NCBI GenBank assembly: GCA_026417115.1
Contig: JAOADW010000046.1
Location: 16,856-80,855, forward strand
Direction of reading: 5' to 3'
Length of the DNA stretch: 64,000 nucleotides
DNA from: Rhodocyclaceae bacterium
GTDB lineage: Bacteria; Pseudomonadota; Gammaproteobacteria; Burkholderiales; Rhodocyclaceae
The notes under the pieces are model-generated. The model had not been told where the DNA came from. It did not search any database and saw only the letters and a program-made list of their open reading frames with translations. This document shows, piece after piece, positions 7,033 through 39,139 of this stretch (the first letter of the stretch is position 1; each line of letters opens with the position of its first letter). The position numbers and the translations under genes are program-made.

Positions 7033-9595
7033 GGCGCGCAACGAACTGCTTTCCCGACATCGCCAACGCCTCGAGTCCGGACGCGCACAACTCGCGCACG
7101 ATTACCAACACCGCCCCTTGCCGAAACGTTATCTAAGGGGACTCGCGCAGCTCGTCGACGAGGTCTTGGTTAGCCTCTGGCATAGCCTCGAGCCCAACCC
7201 TAGCGCCTCATTGCTCGCGGTGGGTGGCTATGGGCGCGGCGAGCTGTTTCCGTCTTCCGACGTCGATCTTTTGATCCTCACACCGACCACTGCAGCTGCA
7301 CAGGCATGCGAAGACAAGCTCTCGGCATTGATCGGTTTGTGCTGGGATTGCGGGCTTGCCATCGGCCATAGCGTGCGCACCATCGACGCCTGCCTGGAAG
7401 AAAGCCAGCGGGACATCACCGTCGCCACTGCGCTCCTCGAGGCTCGTTATCTCGCCGGCAGCCGCACGCTCGCCCAAGCCTTTTTCGGCGCCTATCAGGC
7501 GTCATTGGACCCCTTCGCCTTTTTCACCGCGAAGCGTCTCGAACAAGAAGGGCGTCATAGCCGCTACAACGACTCGGCGTTCAACCTCGAACCCAACTGC
7601 AAGGAAGCCCCAGGCGGCCTGCGTGATCTGCACGTGCTGCGTTGGATCGCGCGCGCAGCCGGCTGGGGGAATGGCTGGTCAGCGCTTGCCCGGCGTGGCA
7701 TCGTCTCTCGCCAAGAGGCCAGAGAACTCCGCCATTGCGAAGATTTTCTCGCCCGCCTGCGCATCGCTTTGCATCTCGTCGCCCAACGACGAGAAGACCG
7801 TCTGCTCTTCGACTACCAGGAAACCATCGCCCGTTTTCTCGGCATCGAGGCTTCACTGCATCAGCGCGCCGCCGAGCGGCTTATGCGGCGCTATTACCGC
7901 AATGCCAAACGCATTACCCAGCTCAACACCCTCTTGATGCTCGACTTCGCCGCGCGCTTGGAAGCCGCACCCTCCCACGAGCCGGTCCCGCTCGACGAGG
8001 ACTTCCAAATCGAACGGGATTTGCTCGATTTGCGCACTCCCGATCTTTTTCAACAGCGGCCGTCGGCCATCTTGAAAAGCTTCTCCCTGCTTTCCGCACA
8101 TCCCGAACTCAAGGGGATGACGCCGCGCACCCTGCGCGCATTGTGGCATGCGCGTCACCTGATCGACGCCAACTTTCGGCGCGACCCCGCCAATCAACGC
8201 AATTTTCTCGCCTTGTTCTCGGCGCCGCGGGGGCTTACTCATCAACTACGCCGCATGAACCAGTTCGATCTCTTGGGCGCCTACCTTCCCGCCTTTGCAC
8301 GCATCGTCGGTCAATTGCAACACGACCTCTTCCATATCTATACCGTCGACCAACACATTCTCCAAGTCGTGCGCAACTTGCGTCGGCTCGCGCTGCCCGA
8401 ATTCGCCCACGAGTTCCCTTTTTGTTCGCGGCTCATGGCCGCGCAGCCGAAACCATGGCGCATTTATCTCGCCGCCCTTTTCCATGACATCGCCAAAGGC
8501 CGCGGCGGCGATCACTCCCAGCTGGGGGCGCGCGATGTGCGGCGCTTTTGCCGCCTACACGCAATCGAAAAAGAAGATGCCGAATTCATCGCCTTCCTGG
8601 TCGCCCATCATTTGACCATGTCGCGCGTCGCCCAGCACGAAGACCTGGGCGACCCTGCCGTGATACGCCGCTTCGCACGTCTCGTGGAAACGAATGAGCG
8701 GCTCTCGGCGCTTTATCTGCTCACCGTCTGCGACATCCGCGGCACCAGTCCAAAGGTCTGGAACGCCTGGAAAGCCAAGCTGCTCGAGGATCTCTATCGC
8801 GTGACGGCGCGCGTGCTCGCGGGAGAGGACGTCGAAAAGCTTGCGGGCATCGAAGCGCGCCAAGAAGAGGCGCGCCGCCTGCTTCGACTCAAGGGTCTGC
8901 GCCCAGGCGTCGAAGCCGCGTTTTGGCGCCAGCTCGACACTGGATATTTCATGCGCCACGACAGCGAAAAGATCGCTTGGCACACACAGACGCTCTACCA
9001 TCGGCCAGCGCCCGAAAGGCCCGTGGTGCGCGCGCGCCTGAACCCGGCAGGCGCTGGCCTGCAGGTCATGATCTACACGCATGACCAGCCTGAGCTTTTT
9101 GCGCGGCTCTGTGGTTTCTTCGCGCGTTTGGGCTATACCATCGTCGACGCCAAGATCCACACCACGAAGCATGGCTATGCATTGGACAGCTTCAGCCTGC
9201 TCGAGGCCGAGCCCATGGCTCCCTACCGGGACATGATCGGCTTCATCGAACACGAGCTCGCTGCCGAGCTCATCCAACAGCCTCCGCTATCGCCACCGCC
9301 AGCGCGCCGGCTTTCGCGACAGGCGCGTTGCCAGCCCTTTACCCCGGAAGTCTCCTTCCGCCCCGACGAATCGGGTCGCTATTACATCCTCTCCTTAGGA
9401 GCAATCGACCGCGCCGGTCTGCTTTATGATGTCGCGCGCCTTCTGTCCCGCTTCGGCGTCGAGGTTCATGCCGCAAAAATCTCGACGCTCGGCGAACGGG
9501 TCGAAGACACTTTTCTCGCAAGCGGCGCAGCGCTGGCCGACCCCCCCACGCTCCTGCGCCTGGAACAAGAGCTCATCGAGATTTTGCGTATCTGA
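7025..9595 (+). CDS. glnD: bifunctional PII uridylyltransferase / uridylyl-removing enzyme
   Basis: GlnD senses glutamine and uridylylates or deuridylylates PII. It has 856 residues with the full domain order: nucleotidyltransferase with GGYGRGELFPSSDVDLLIL (about residues 67-85), a helical linker, an HD domain with FHDIAKGRGGDHSQLGA (about 485-500), and two ACT domains starting near residues 670 and 785. The catalytic GG...DxD and the HD pair are intact, so both activities are expected. The ATG lies inside the end of map, so translation is probably coupled. Confidence 0.97.
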   Translation: MVEARNELLSRHRQRLESGRAQLAHDYQHRPLPKRYLRGLAQLVDEVLVSLWHSLEPNPSASLLAVGGYGRGELFPSSDVDLLILTPTTAAAQACEDKLSALIGLCWDCGLAIGHSVRTIDACLEESQRDITVATALLEARYLAGSRTLAQAFFGAYQASLDPFAFFTAKRLEQEGRHSRYNDSAFNLEPNCKEAPGGLRDLHVLRWIARAAGWGNGWSALARRGIVSRQEARELRHCEDFLARLRIALHLVAQRREDRLLFDYQETIARFLGIEASLHQRAAERLMRRYYRNAKRITQLNTLLMLDFAARLEAAPSHEPVPLDEDFQIERDLLDLRTPDLFQQRPSAILKSFSLLSAHPELKGMTPRTLRALWHARHLIDANFRRDPANQRNFLALFSAPRGLTHQLRRMNQFDLLGAYLPAFARIVGQLQHDLFHIYTVDQHILQVVRNLRRLALPEFAHEFPFCSRLMAAQPKPWRIYLAALFHDIAKGRGGDHSQLGARDVRRFCRLHAIEKEDAEFIAFLVAHHLTMSRVAQHEDLGDPAVIRRFARLVETNERLSALYLLTVCDIRGTSPKVWNAWKAKLLEDLYRVTARVLAGEDVEKLAGIEARQEEARRLLRLKGLRPGVEAAFWRQLDTGYFMRHDSEKIAWHTQTLYHRPAPERPVVRARLNPAGAGLQVMIYTHDQPELFARLCGFFARLGYTIVDAKIHTTKHGYALDSFSLLEAEPMAPYRDMIGFIEHELAAELIQQPPLSPPPARRLSRQARCQPFTPEVSFRPDESGRYYILSLGAIDRAGLLYDVARLLSRFGVEVHAAKISTLGERVEDTFLASGAALADPPTLLRLEQELIEILRI

Positions 9596-9625
9596 ATCGC
9601 CCAGGCCTCTTGGCCTCCTGTTCTC

Positions 9626-10372
9626 TCAGAGCTCCTCCTCGCAAAAATGCTCGATGATCCGCCGCGCCTTGGCCATGCCTTCTTGCAGCACGCCTTCGAT
9701 CGTCTCGAGGGGGATCGTATGCTGGGCGTCGCCGCGTCCCGCCGCCCAATTGGCCACCACGCAAAGCGCCGCATAGGGCGTCGCCAGCTCACGCGCCAGG
9801 GCCGCCTCCGGCATACCGGTCATGCCGACGATGTCGCAGCCATCTCGCGCCATGCGCTCGATCTCGGCGGCCGTCTCCAGCCGCGGCCCCTGCGTTGCGC
9901 CATAGACGGCCCTACCTGCGACGGTGAGGCCTGCTCTGTCGGCAGCGCACAACAAACGCTGGCGTAACAACTCGTCATAGGGCTCGGTAAAGTCGACATG
10001 CACGACCGGCCGGTCGATGACATCGAAGAAAGTCTGCGCGCGCCCCCAGGTGTAGTCGATGATTTGATGAGGAACGACCAAGGTCCCAGGTGCCAGGTCC
10101 GCGCGGATGCCGCCGACGGAGGCCACGGAGACGATGGCCTGAGCGCCCGCGCCTTTGATGAGCGCCCAGACATTGGCACGGTAATTGACGCGATGAGGGG
10201 GAATGGTATGGCCATGCCCATGGCGCGCCAAAAACACGACCTCTTGTTTGCCGACGCGCCCAAAAGTAAGCATGCCCGAGGGCTCGCCATACGGTGTGCG
10301 CACGACTTCACGCCGCGCCACTTCGAGCGAAGACAGCTGCGTGAGTCCACTGCCGCCGATAACCGCCAACAT
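9626..10372 (-). CDS. S-methyl-5'-thioinosine phosphorylase-like purine nucleoside phosphorylase
   Basis: This 248-residue protein is a PNP/MTAP family member, with the phosphate-binding GGSGL at the N-terminus, RHGHGHTIPPHRVNYRAN and GMTGMPEAALARELATPYA. The start MLAVIGGSGL has an AAGGA site 8 nt upstream, while the track frame is longer. Adenine-specific MTAPs carry an aspartate pair near the C-terminus; here the region reads CVVANWAAGRGD. An Asn at this point fits 6-oxopurine preference, as in methylthioinosine phosphorylase. The enzyme would then salvage methylthioinosine from polyamine synthesis. The specificity is inference. It converges on glnD with 30 nt between the stops. Confidence 0.8.
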   Translation of the reverse strand: MLAVIGGSGLTQLSSLEVARREVVRTPYGEPSGMLTFGRVGKQEVVFLARHGHGHTIPPHRVNYRANVWALIKGAGAQAIVSVASVGGIRADLAPGTLVVPHQIIDYTWGRAQTFFDVIDRPVVHVDFTEPYDELLRQRLLCAADRAGLTVAGRAVYGATQGPRLETAAEIERMARDGCDIVGMTGMPEAALARELATPYAALCVVANWAAGRGDAQHTIPLETIEGVLQEGMAKARRIIEHFCEEEL

Positions 10373-34763: not shown

Positions 34764-34792
34764 TTGTCGCGCTACGAAAGCCTTGCCATAAT
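34764..34792 (+). promoter_or_regulatory. predicted promoter of the cytochrome cluster
   Basis: TTGTCG (34764-34769), 17 bp, CATAAT (34787-34792). A start near 34799 gives a leader of about 115 nt containing a 7-bp hairpin (CCGTTTT/AAAACGG, 34802-34821). A palindrome ATCGCGCGAT (34742-34751) lies just upstream of the -35 box. Confidence 0.5.
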
Positions 34793-34912: not shown

Positions 34913-35533
34913 ATGGGAGACAGCGAAAAGAAAGGACTTTGGCAGCGTCTGAAGAGCCCACCGAATTGCTCGATGCTGCGCATGATCGTCATTGGCGTCT
35001 TGGGCGGCATCATCATCTGGGGCGGCCTCAATACGGCGATGGAGTATACGAACCGCTCCGAGTTCTGCACCTCCTGCCATGAGATGACCATTCCCTACGA
35101 AGAACTCAAGAAAACCGCGCATTACAAGAACCGGAGCGGGGCTGCCGCCCAATGCGCCGATTGCCACGTCGCGAGCAGCAAAACGCCGACCGATTACATG
35201 TACAAGGCGTTTCAAAAGCTCCTGGCCGCGCGTGACATCATCGGCCACATTCGTGGCACGATCGACACGCCCGAAAAATACGAAGCGCATCGCTATACGA
35301 TGGCGCAGCGCGTCTGGGAGCGTATGAAGGAGCGCGACTCGAAAGAATGCCGTAATTGCCACGATTTCAAATACATGGATGCCGACAAACAAAAGGATCG
35401 CGCAGCCGTCAAGCACGAAGGCGCGGTCGAAGACGGGAAGACCTGCATCGAATGCCACAAGGGCGTTTCCCACAAATTGCCGAAAGAATATCTCGAGCAA
35501 TTGCAACAAAGTGGCGAAGGCAAAGAAAGCTGA
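34913..35533 (+). CDS. membrane-anchored tetrahaem cytochrome c, NapC/NirT family
   Basis: The protein has 206 residues. One transmembrane helix (about 22-40, VIGVLGGIIIWGGLN) anchors a periplasmic domain with exactly four CxxCH sites: 52-56, 81-85, 146-150 and 178-182. NapC/NirT proteins pass electrons between the quinol pool and periplasmic redox enzymes. The first residues SPPNCSMLRMI and the spacing match the family, but the specific partner is not fixed by sequence. Since it begins the operon with an ethylbenzene-dehydrogenase-like haem protein and fccAB, it may connect them to quinone. Confidence 0.9.
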   Translation: MGDSEKKGLWQRLKSPPNCSMLRMIVIGVLGGIIIWGGLNTAMEYTNRSEFCTSCHEMTIPYEELKKTAHYKNRSGAAAQCADCHVASSKTPTDYMYKAFQKLLAARDIIGHIRGTIDTPEKYEAHRYTMAQRVWERMKERDSKECRNCHDFKYMDADKQKDRAAVKHEGAVEDGKTCIECHKGVSHKLPKEYLEQLQQSGEGKES

Positions 35534-35575
35534 TAACATTGACTTGTCCATCGATAAAACGAACTGGAGTTTTCT

Positions 35576-36499
35576 ATGAAGAAAATCGCATTCGCCGTGA
35601 TGGGCGCTTTTTTCGCAAGCCATGGTTTCACGGCTGAGCCGGATTGGAGCAAAGTCACCGAACGCAAGATCAAGCTGTTCTATCCCGGCCAATCTGGCCT
35701 CGAATGGGTCATGAACAAAGCCGACCATTCGGCAGTGCCCGACATCGTCGACAAGAAACGGGCGTGCTCGAGATGCCATGAGGGCGACGCCAACGAAGTC
35801 GGCGACAAGATCATCGCGGGCAAGGCCGTAGGCAATTCGAAGGCGCCGCTCGAGCCCAAACCCATCGCCGACCGTGCGGGTTGGGTGCCTGCCGTGTTCA
35901 AGATGGCCCACGACGGACAAAACCTCTACGTGCGCCTTGAGTGGGAGCAGCCCAAAGGCGGCAGTTTTGGCATGGACAAGAAAAACGAGGTCAAAGTGGC
36001 CATGATGTTCGACGGTGGCTTCGCCGAGGGCGCAGAGCCTGCCATGGAGCTCGCCGAGCGCGCTGGCTGCTGGATCACCTGCCACAATGACCTGCGCTCG
36101 ATGAAGGACGCCAAGGACGACAAGAAGACCAAATACATCAAAGGCGCCGCCCTCGATGGCGGCAAATTCATGGACCTCATCCAGTGGCGCAGCGGCAAAG
36201 GCGAAAAGCCCGTCGACGGCTACGTCACCGACAAGCGTGTGATGGAAGGCGGCAAGGCCCTGGTGAAGGCGGAAGGCAAAAAGGACGGCAACAAATGGGT
36301 CGTGACCTTCACCCGTGCGCTCGCGGGAGGCGGCACGGGCGATCACAAGATCGAGCCGGGCAAAATCTACAACTTTGGTTTCGCGCTCCACGACGGCGGC
36401 TCAGAGGCCCGCTATCACTATGTTTCGCTCAATTACCAGTTCGGGCTCGACAAAACCGTCGAGGGCGTCAAGTATTATTACAATGTCGTCAAACATTGA
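35576..36499 (+). CDS. periplasmic c-type cytochrome with ethylbenzene-dehydrogenase-like haem-binding domain
   Basis: The protein has 307 residues. A Sec signal peptide (MKKIAFAVMGAFFASHGFTA) is followed by CSRCH (64-68) and a beta-rich region beginning WVPAVFKMAHDGQNLYVRLEWEQPKGGSF, as in the gamma-subunit-like domain of DMSO-reductase-type dehydrogenases. A second site, CWITCH (165-170), has three residues between the cysteines. I recognise the fold class, not a defined function. It lies 42 nt after the tetrahaem gene and 40 nt before fccA, so it is probably an electron-transfer partner of one or both. Confidence 0.75.
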   Translation: MKKIAFAVMGAFFASHGFTAEPDWSKVTERKIKLFYPGQSGLEWVMNKADHSAVPDIVDKKRACSRCHEGDANEVGDKIIAGKAVGNSKAPLEPKPIADRAGWVPAVFKMAHDGQNLYVRLEWEQPKGGSFGMDKKNEVKVAMMFDGGFAEGAEPAMELAERAGCWITCHNDLRSMKDAKDDKKTKYIKGAALDGGKFMDLIQWRSGKGEKPVDGYVTDKRVMEGGKALVKAEGKKDGNKWVVTFTRALAGGGTGDHKIEPGKIYNFGFALHDGGSEARYHYVSLNYQFGLDKTVEGVKYYYNVVKH

Positions 36500-36539
36500 G
36501 GGGTAGCAGCACTTTGTCCACTGATCGGAGGAGACCACG

Positions 36540-37118
36540 ATGAAACACAGATGGAAGTATGCGGTCGCGGCCTACGCCATCACCATCTCGGCAGCCGCCC
36601 TGGCCGTGGAGCCCGATGCGGCGATGCTGTCTAACGCCTGTGCGGGCTGCCATGGCACCTATGGCGGCAGCGCCGGCCCATCGATGCCAAGCCTCGCCGG
36701 CCATTCGAAGACCGCCATCGTCGAGGCAATGAAGAAATTCAAAAGCGGCGAGCGGCCATCGAGCATTATGGGGCGCCTGGCCAAAGGCTACACCGATCAG
36801 CAAATCGAACTGATGGGCGAATATTTCTCGAAGCAAAAAATCCATTTCACGAACCAGAAAGTCGATCTCGCCAAGGCCAAGCGGGGCGCTGAGCTCCAGG
36901 AAGAACACTGCTCGCGCTGCCACCTCGACGACGGCAAAGAGGGCAAAGACGATACCCCCGTCATGGCCAGCCAATGGCTGCCCTATCTGCAGATGCAGAT
37001 GGAGCTCTATCAGACGGGCAAGCGCAAGATGCCGGAGAGGATGGCGGAGAAGGTGAAGCCCCTCTCCCCAGCCGACATCGAGGCACTGTTGCATTTCTAT
37101 GCTGGCGTGAACAAATAA
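36540..37118 (+). CDS. fccA: flavocytochrome c sulfide dehydrogenase, dihaem cytochrome subunit
   Basis: The protein has 192 residues with a signal peptide (cut near ALA-VE) and two c-type haem sites, CAGCH (34-38) and CSRCH (124-128), in a duplicated c4-like fold (SMPSLAGHSKTAIVEAMKKFKSGERPS). As the cytochrome subunit of FccAB it accepts electrons from the flavin subunit in the periplasm. The identity rests on direct adjacency to fccB, 13 nt downstream. Alone it would be called a c4-like cytochrome. Confidence 0.88.
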   Translation: MKHRWKYAVAAYAITISAAALAVEPDAAMLSNACAGCHGTYGGSAGPSMPSLAGHSKTAIVEAMKKFKSGERPSSIMGRLAKGYTDQQIELMGEYFSKQKIHFTNQKVDLAKAKRGAELQEEHCSRCHLDDGKEGKDDTPVMASQWLPYLQMQMELYQTGKRKMPERMAEKVKPLSPADIEALLHFYAGVNK

Positions 37119-37131
37119 AGGAGGGGACGAC

Positions 37132-38436
37132 ATGACACTCAACCGTAGGGATTTCCTCAAAGTCGTCGGCGGCGCATCGAGCCTGGCCTTGGCAGGGTGC
37201 GCGGCGCAAGCGCCGGCCGTCTCCTCTGGGTCCGCTGCCGAAATCATGCCCAAGACCGGCCGGCGCGTCGTGGTCGTCGGCGGCGGCTATGGCGGGACTA
37301 TCGCCGCCAAATACGTGCGCATGATGGACAAGAGCATCGAGGTCGTGCTCATCGAGCGCAACGATCATTTCGTCTCGTGCCCATTCTCCAACCTCTACTT
37401 GGGCGGCTTACTGCCAGATTTGTCTTCGCTCACCATCAAATATGACAAATTAATCGCCAATCATGGCATCAAATTCGTGCAGGCCGAAGTCACCGGCATC
37501 GATCCCGCCGCCCATGTCGTCATTACCGACAAGGGCAGGCTCAAGTACGATCGCCTGATCATCTCGCCGGGCATCGATTTCCGCACCGAGGAAATCAAGG
37601 GATATGACGCTAAAACGCCTGAAATCATGCCGCATGCCTGGAAGGCTGGCCCGCAGACCGTTTTGCTGCGCAAGCAACTGGAAGCCATGAAGGATGGCGG
37701 CACGGTCGTGATTTCCGTGCCGCTCGCACCCTTCCGTTGCCCGCCTGGGCCTTATGAGCGCGCCAGCATGATCGCGTGGTACCTCAAGCACAACAAGCCC
37801 AATTCCAAGGTGATCATCCTCGACGCCAACCCTGACCTGGTCTCGAAGGGAGCGCTATTCCGGAAGGGTTGGGACATGCACTACAAGAACATCATCGACT
37901 ATCGGAAGGCTGCCAAGGTCACCGAAATCGATGTAGGCAAGAAAGCCGTGCTCATCGAAGGTCTCGACGAAGTCAGGGGTGACGTCGTGAATCTGATCCC
38001 GCCCCAGCGCGCCGCCGACATCGCCGTCAAGGCCGATCTCGTGGGCGATGACAAGCGGTGGTGTCCAATCGACGCCAACACCTTCGAATCGAAAAAGCAC
38101 AAAGACATCCATGTGATCGGGGATGCCTCGATCGCAGGCGCGATGCCCAAGTCCGGCTATTCCGCCAACTCCGAAGCCAAGGTGTGCGCGACCAACGTCG
38201 TGCGTCTGATGAATGGGCAGCCCGTGATGTCACTGTCCGGCATCAATACTTGCTACAGCTACATCGCCAAAGGCGAGGCGATCAGCGTGGCCGCCGTCTA
38301 TGCCGTCAAAGACGGTGCGATCATCGCTGTGCCCAATTCGGGAGGGGTCTCCCCTGCCGACTGGTCCCAGGCGAAGACCGAGGCGATCTATGCCGAAAGC
38401 TGGCTCAAAAACATCCTTACCGAGATGTCTTCGTAA
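37132..38436 (+). CDS. fccB: flavocytochrome c sulfide dehydrogenase, flavoprotein subunit
   Basis: FccB oxidises sulfide to sulfur or polysulfide. The protein has 434 residues. A Tat signal (RRDFLK) and hydrophobic stretch ending in AGC suggest export of the folded flavoprotein. The FAD-binding GGGYGGTIAAKYVR is followed by FVSCPFSNLYLGG. The two cysteines expected to form the redox-active disulfide, Cys203 (FRCPPGPYERA) and Cys374 (INTCYSYI), are both present. GDASIAGAMPKSGYSANSEA is the C-terminal FAD site. It is the last gene before a strong terminator. Confidence 0.94.
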   Translation: MTLNRRDFLKVVGGASSLALAGCAAQAPAVSSGSAAEIMPKTGRRVVVVGGGYGGTIAAKYVRMMDKSIEVVLIERNDHFVSCPFSNLYLGGLLPDLSSLTIKYDKLIANHGIKFVQAEVTGIDPAAHVVITDKGRLKYDRLIISPGIDFRTEEIKGYDAKTPEIMPHAWKAGPQTVLLRKQLEAMKDGGTVVISVPLAPFRCPPGPYERASMIAWYLKHNKPNSKVIILDANPDLVSKGALFRKGWDMHYKNIIDYRKAAKVTEIDVGKKAVLIEGLDEVRGDVVNLIPPQRAADIAVKADLVGDDKRWCPIDANTFESKKHKDIHVIGDASIAGAMPKSGYSANSEAKVCATNVVRLMNGQPVMSLSGINTCYSYIAKGEAISVAAVYAVKDGAIIAVPNSGGVSPADWSQAKTEAIYAESWLKNILTEMSS

Positions 38437-38455: not shown

Positions 38456-38483
38456 AAAAACCCCGCACTCGCGGGGTTTTTTT
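38456..38483. terminator. bidirectional terminator between fccB and the cytochrome c4 gene
   Basis: AAAAACCCCGC-ACTC-GCGGGGTTTTTTT has an A-run on one side and a T-run on the other, so it can end transcription of the two convergent genes. Confidence 0.9.
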
Positions 38484-38530: not shown

Positions 38531-39139
38531 CTATTTCAGGCCGCCAAGATAAGCCGCCACCGCATGGGTTTCCAGCGCCGTGAGCTTCGCAGCGATCGTA
38601 TGCATGACGGCATTATCGTTATTCCGTAGGCGCTTATTGAACTCCAAAAGTTGCGTTTCGATATAGCGGGGATGCTGACCGGCCAGGCGAGGCAGCTGCG
38701 CCGTTCCCTCGCCTTTCTCACCGTGGCAGCTCGCACAGGCCGGCACGCCCGAAAAGGCGTTCCCTTTATGATAAATGTATTTACCGACGGCCGCCAAGTC
38801 GGCGTCAAGAACTCTGCTCGCCAAGGCGGGCTTGCTGGCGTAGTAGTCGGCAAGCTCGGCAATGACGGCATCGTCGAGGTCCTTGGCCATTTCATTCATC
38901 GTGTCGCTCTGGCGGCGCCCCTCGCGAAAGTCGATGAGCTGCTTGCGCAAATATTCACGATGTTGAGCAGCCAACCTGGGATAGATGGCGGTCGCGCTCT
39001 CTCCTTCCAAACCATGACACAAGGCGCACCGCATCGTCAACACCTCTTTCGCCTTGGCGCTCAGCTTGTTCGCATAGGCTGGCGTCGCCAGGGTGAGACA
39101 CGCCATCCACAGGACTAGGCGATTCATCATGCGCCTCAT
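38531..39139 (-). CDS. dihaem cytochrome c4
   Basis: The protein has 202 residues with a signal peptide ([19 protein letters not shown]) and two haem sites, CALCH and CASCH, each followed by the c4 pattern [21 protein letters not shown] or [18 protein letters not shown]. It is a periplasmic electron carrier to terminal oxidases. The ATG at 39139 overlaps the dut stop (ATGA). Internal ATGs at 39130 and 39127 are alternatives. It may accept electrons from the neighbouring sulfide dehydrogenase, which is inference. Confidence 0.92.

Follow-up and report, generated by a model that had tools for sequence, protein, structure and literature searches.

What do a membrane-anchored tetrahaem cytochrome and a haem protein resembling a subunit of ethylbenzene dehydrogenase do directly upstream of the genes for a sulfide dehydrogenase? 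The question is raised by a stretch of 64 000 nt from a member of the Rhodocyclaceae (GenBank assembly GCA_026417115.1, contig JAOADW010000046.1, positions 16 856 to 80 855), referred to here as the window, in which the genes at positions 34913-38436 read nirT-nirB-fccA-fccB, all on the plus strand and the first two being nirT-like and nirB-like. Our study suggests that a nirTB pair was captured by fccAB, the genes of flavocytochrome c sulfide dehydrogenase, to give a membrane-tethered FccB-FccA-NirB-NirT chain that probably carries sulfide electrons to ubiquinone, a reading to which we assign a probability of roughly two in three. Sequence comparison strongly supports the link between NirTB and FccAB, and we infer a physical four-protein complex together with the path and direction of its electrons.

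Gene content of the cluster

Gene 1 (34913..35533) encodes a NapC/NirT tetrahaem cytochrome (Pfam Cytochrom_NNT, 8.2e-66) with the single N-terminal membrane helix and four CxxCH motifs (35066, 35153, 35348 and 35444) that characterize NapC/NirT quinol dehydrogenases. Its product is 49 % identical to the NirT of a nirS-linked locus (L153), but carries five additional residues, ASSKT, after haem 2 (35171..35185, plus strand). Haem 2 and haem 3 were 65 residues apart in all 70 NirT proteins of the fcc-linked kind, 6 of which come from contigs that stop short of fccB, whereas each of the 31 nir-linked proteins had a spacing of 60. The insertion is clade-specific and adjoins the region that carries the quinone site in NrfH. 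One Lys and one Asp are retained in the region of gene 1 that aligns to NrfH, and they are only suggestive of reactivity with quinone or quinol.

Gene 2 (35576..36499) encodes a dihaem cytochrome of the EB_dh fold (Pfam EB_dh, 3e-32), with the c-haem motifs CSRCH (35765-35779) and CWITCH, the latter a CX3CH (36068-36085). Both sites (residues 64-68 and 165-170) were invariant over 47 aligned proteins of the family, one of them nirS-linked, as were His51, Met176, His272 and His281, which are candidates for the distal haem ligands. The predicted fold resembles EbdC (2ivf_C, 1.9e-9) and NXR-C, although the structure model was of moderate quality (predicted local distance difference test, pLDDT, 74; predicted template modelling score, pTM, 0.80) and usable for the fold only. 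EbdC and NXR-C hold one haem b via Met and Lys (PMC8387239), and their alignments to gene 2 were too short for these ligands to be placed. A role as a molybdoenzyme subunit of the EbdC or NXR-C type was considered and rejected, as no molybdoenzyme alpha or beta genes were found among the window open reading frames between 32000 and 42000 and the neighbours in 68 related loci were NirT, FccA and FccB. The first-pass annotation of this DNA had left the second gene without an assigned substrate, overlooking its likeness to the dihaem NirB of nirS operons: the product is 49 % identical to the NirB of locus L153 and has two conserved c-haem sites within an EB_dh fold, and its gene directly follows a nirT. 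It was classed as NirB-like rather than NirB because there is no nirS in the cluster.

The two downstream genes are identified by homology as encoding FccAB, a predicted sulfide dehydrogenase. FccA (36540..37118; 1fcd_C 3.4e-41, 3vrd_A 2.1e-41) is the dihaem cytochrome subunit, with two cytochrome c domains and CxxCH motifs at 36639 and 36909, and its gene ends 13 nt upstream of fccB. FccB (37132..38436; 5n1t_A 1.7e-119, 1fcd_A 6.9e-111) is the flavin subunit, homologous over its full length to known FccB, with FCSD_central (2e-44) and FCSD-flav_bind (2e-18) domains and conserved Cys83, Cys203 and Cys374 (37378, 37738 and 38251). Both proteins retain the haem sites or cysteines of their families. 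The cluster encodes eight covalent haem c sites (four in gene 1, two each in genes 2 and 3), one fewer than the nine counted previously.

Conservation and distribution

A scan of contigs from GTDB genomes with the product of gene 2, a design that finds close relatives only, returned 68 loci (51-90 % identity), nearly all from contigs titled Betaproteobacteria, and each was then searched with the four window proteins. NirT lay upstream in 65/65 loci with room for it, as a separate gene in 45 and as an in-frame fusion with gene 2 in 20, while FccA was present in 64/64 and FccB in 62/62, every exception being a contig end. The order was kept in all 68 loci wherever the contig was long enough, and it is therefore not a product of chance; the cluster is a real and conserved unit, hereafter the module.

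As the GTDB scan is confined to close relatives, a second design was applied to 399 Burkholderiales genomes, based upon a profile search for gene 2 and a separate search for FCSD_central. An fcc-type EB_dh protein was found in 9 genomes, directly followed by fccB in all 9, and FCSD_central was found in 185, which makes the module a minority form, carried by about 5 % of the Burkholderiales genomes with fccB. The FccA proteins examined in other Burkholderiales were mostly monohaem and came without NirTB.

Relatives of gene 2 at greater distance, with about 50 % identity or less, adjoin cytochrome cd1 nitrite reductase. Of 40 loci of this kind, drawn from beta- and gammaproteobacteria, 32 had nirS adjacent, 2 were cut by a contig end and 6 lacked it, and fccB was beside none of them (0/40). 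The usual order was nirS, NapC/NirT, EB_dh protein, with the last two fused in most of the gammaproteobacteria seen. Previous work describes nirT (tetrahaem) and nirB (dihaem) immediately downstream of nirS, a fused NirTB in Halomonas and a requirement for NirT in nitrite reduction (PMC13086519). Two genes after nirS in Pseudomonas stutzeri RCH2 lies Psest_0817, an annotated ethylbenzene dehydrogenase whose fitness pattern under chromate resembles that of nirS and nirF (PMC5554334); its equation with nirB comes from combining these two papers. Taken together, the nirS-linked loci, the published nirT and nirB and the RCH2 gene identify gene 2 by homology as a relative of the dihaem NirB that follows nirT in nirS operons, and gene 1 as NirT-like. 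The search for the pair across genomes, which the first-pass annotation had proposed as a check on the link to fccAB, gave a divided answer: over the family as a whole NirT and NirB mostly accompany nirS, but in the sub-clade that includes the window they occur only with fccAB.

Phylogenetic inference

The fcc-linked proteins formed one group in the EB_dh tree (42 proteins against 36 others, support 99/97) and in the NirT tree (support 100/98). A clade of 68 rows in the FccB tree (support 100/100) held 66 module FccB and 2 non-module proteins, and FccB with monohaem partners fell outside it. The fcc-linked NirB-like proteins were a sister group to the nirS-linked proteins, and sequence similarity indicates that the two nirTB pairs share common ancestry. 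In the NirB tree the fused module proteins grouped with one another and away from the fused nirS-linked proteins, which makes at least two independent fusion events probable. The trees, with a root not fixed by an outgroup, and the NirT insertion fit a single capture of the nirTB pair by a dihaem FccAB in Betaproteobacteria, after which the module spread vertically and to some extent laterally.

The predicted membrane attachment of FccB also varied. The window FccB begins with a twin-arginine translocation-type signal and a lipobox, LAGC (37189-37200), and such a lipobox was present in 40 module loci with unfused NirT and NirB but in 0/18 with fused proteins (Fisher p 1e-11, uncorrected for relatedness). 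Among the other unfused loci, three had lost the Cys by substitution, two more were without a lipobox and three could not be scored. The pattern is a hint that, in loci with fused NirT and NirB, one tether may take the place of another. A lipid anchor was rejected as a module-specific trait, as it is also common in other Burkholderiales FccB.

Signals and boundaries of the cluster

The four genes are separated by 42, 40 and 13 nt and each start codon is preceded by a Shine-Dalgarno-like sequence, so the close, co-directional spacing described earlier was borne out by the coordinates. The single terminator was likewise confirmed, as a strong intrinsic terminator (11 pairs, 6 G-C, loop of 4, T run) at 38456..38481. 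The claim of a single promoter was an over-reading: the candidate sigma-70-like site, TTGTCG-17-CATAAT (34764..34792, plus strand), has 9/12 consensus matches, and 3 sites of this quality turned up where chance alone predicts 1.9 +/- 1.5. Beyond the terminator, which it shares with fccB, lies a convergent gene for a c4-type dihaem cytochrome (38531-39139, minus strand). In about 14/68 loci the module is likewise followed by a convergent gene resembling this one. The c4-type cytochrome may act as an electron acceptor.

Proposed electron path and its alternatives

The electrons from ordinary flavocytochrome c enter respiration only at the level of cytochrome c. In the chain proposed here, FccB, through its flavin adenine dinucleotide (FAD), would oxidize sulfide in the periplasm and pass the electrons to dihaem FccA, which would hand them to the dihaem NirB-like protein; this would dock on the membrane-anchored NirT-like protein, which would in turn reduce ubiquinone. 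Electrons entering the quinone pool in this way could drive the bc1 complex, formation of reduced nicotinamide adenine dinucleotide (NADH) and a quinol-dependent nitrate reductase. The initial suggestion from the sequence, that the products of genes 1 and 2 connect FccAB with the quinone pool in one direction or the other, is now well supported by the complete linkage, the 20 fusions and the NirT-NirB-NirS precedent. The sulfide-to-quinone direction is preferred because ubiquinol cannot reduce sulfur and because the source genome carries soxB and a dsrA of either the oxidative or the reductive type, which make it a likely sulfur oxidizer. We regard it as an even chance that FccAB-NirBT is a multi-haem sulfide:quinone oxidoreductase, in which NirS has been swapped for a sulfide dehydrogenase and the chain is run backwards.

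Several points weigh against this path. The four proteins are known together from their genes, rather than from structure or biochemistry, and an AlphaFold2 model of a natural NirT-NirB fusion (pLDDT 54, pTM 0.47) was too poor to show an interface. By analogy, nirS systems run outward from quinol, the reverse of the proposed flow, and ImoA, a NapC/NirT protein once proposed as a quinone reductase, was shown to oxidize quinol (PMC9600427). In the metatranscriptome of Ca. Desulfobacillus denitrificans, which carries the module (L043), values for fccB (1.1) and fccA (0.0) were too low to judge co-expression (PMC8402940).

The outward precedent of the nirS-linked pair also speaks for a different arrangement, in which the NirB-like protein is a periplasmic junction fed by both FccAB and NirT, and from which sulfide electrons would move to soluble cytochromes, to NirS or to an oxidase rather than back to quinone. 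Such a junction would suit the convergent c4-type gene, present in the window and in about 14/68 loci, and the second, nir-linked-type EB_dh protein held by 7/9 module genomes of the Burkholderiales sample (uncorrected for relatedness). However, nir-type NirB was not seen in the two other module genomes (G002 and G228), and the module keeps its own NirT, with the clade-specific insertion, in every locus; we consider a junction unlikely, if still a serious competitor. It is far less probable that the two pairs merely share a transcript and that NirTB serves another enzyme. The same pair does serve NirS elsewhere, but the linkage is complete, it is matched by a distinct FccB clade, and no locus with fcc-type NirTB was without fccAB where the contig had room. 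The separate redox enzyme that the first-pass annotation had offered as its second option is made unlikely by this co-evolution. Least credible of all is a flow of quinol electrons through NirT and NirB to FccAB that would reduce sulfur or polysulfide to sulfide. Quinol oxidation is common among NirT-family proteins and flavocytochrome c has been described in the older literature as reducing sulfur with strong reductants, but established potentials make ubiquinol far too oxidizing for sulfur, and the host carries sulfur-oxidation genes, with the above caveat on DsrA type. A chain from sulfide to ubiquinone remains our preferred reading.

Related arrangements in other loci

Further variants were seen around the two families. 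In the source genome itself, a second EB_dh dihaem protein (L093:7084-7989, minus strand, contig C45) directly follows nirS (8100-9836, minus strand); unlike most relatives it has no adjoining NirT, and it may draw on the NirT encoded by the fcc module. The NirB of Rhodocyclus, described as having no NirS partner (PMC8954225), was considered as a possible member of the module; the one phototrophic family member found in our data (G023) had no EB_dh protein at all. In some gammaproteobacteria nirS is followed by a triple fusion, NirT-EB_dh-EB_dh, of 920-1000 aa with 6 CxxCH and 2 CX3CH motifs (L133:4318-7314, L138:114-2888 and L142:4771-7569). A c4/FccA-like dihaem cytochrome lies in or beside the nirS-nirT-EB_dh cluster at L156:6814-7524, L161:4391-5104 and L164:3332-4027, and this layout may be intermediate between those of the nir and fcc loci. 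In L146, L148 and L149, distant EB_dh dihaem proteins that have no nirS are found close to decahaem cytochromes, which belong to the DmsE family in the first two loci; this suggests yet another partner for the EB_dh proteins.

Two observations concern FccAB. One Rhodocyclaceae genome has a second, diverged fccAB running divergently from the module (L026:2859-4869, minus strand). In the source genome, a distant FccB-like flavoprotein with no cytochrome partner lies just past an ankyrin-repeat-like protein (L092:994-2262, plus strand, contig C7).

Significance and comparison with known systems

Flavocytochrome c is usually presented as a reductase of cytochrome c, and its contribution alongside sulfide:quinone oxidoreductase (SQR) is a standing question. 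The arrangement described here points to another route by which electrons from sulfide could reach the quinone pool. If FccAB is indeed wired to quinone, the energy yield of sulfide oxidation would have to be re-estimated for betaproteobacteria of freshwater and groundwater (Sulfuritalea, Thiobacillus and the Rhodocyclaceae of anammox reactors), and it would become clear how sulfide oxidized in the periplasm could supply a quinol-dependent nitrate reductase. The module also shows the NirTB pair to be an interchangeable part, and any nirT or nirB found without nirS is worth checking for fccAB. The module has been hidden by the annotations 'NapC/NirT family cytochrome c' and 'ethylbenzene dehydrogenase'; a paper on the module-bearing genome at L043 lists fccAB and is silent on the two upstream genes (PMC8402940). 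No description joining NapC, NirT or ethylbenzene dehydrogenase/EB_dh with flavocytochrome c was found in the open-licence literature, and a prior description elsewhere is possible.

Among the closest known systems is the nirSTB operon of Stutzerimonas/Pseudomonas stutzeri, which shares with the module the NirT-NirB pair, the order of nirT then nirB, the haem motifs and, in some lineages, the fusion. The window pair and the nirS-linked pair of L153 are about 49 % identical, and the module differs in its partner (FccAB, not NirS), the five-residue NirT insertion, its own NirT and NirB clades and the presumed reversal of electron flow. FccAB of the Allochromatium vinosum type (1FCD, 3VRD) has the same dihaem FccA, FAD-binding FccB and conserved cysteines, whereas module FccAB is always linked to NirTB and its FccB forms its own clade. 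EbdC and NXR-C, the gamma-type subunits of ethylbenzene dehydrogenase and nitrite oxidoreductase, share the fold of the gene 2 product, but they hold one haem b and belong to molybdoenzymes, while gene 2 has two c-type sites and no molybdoenzyme. SQR would reach the same proposed outcome, with sulfide electrons passed to quinone, but it does so as a membrane-associated flavoprotein that reduces quinone directly, whereas the module would use four proteins and 8 haem sites.

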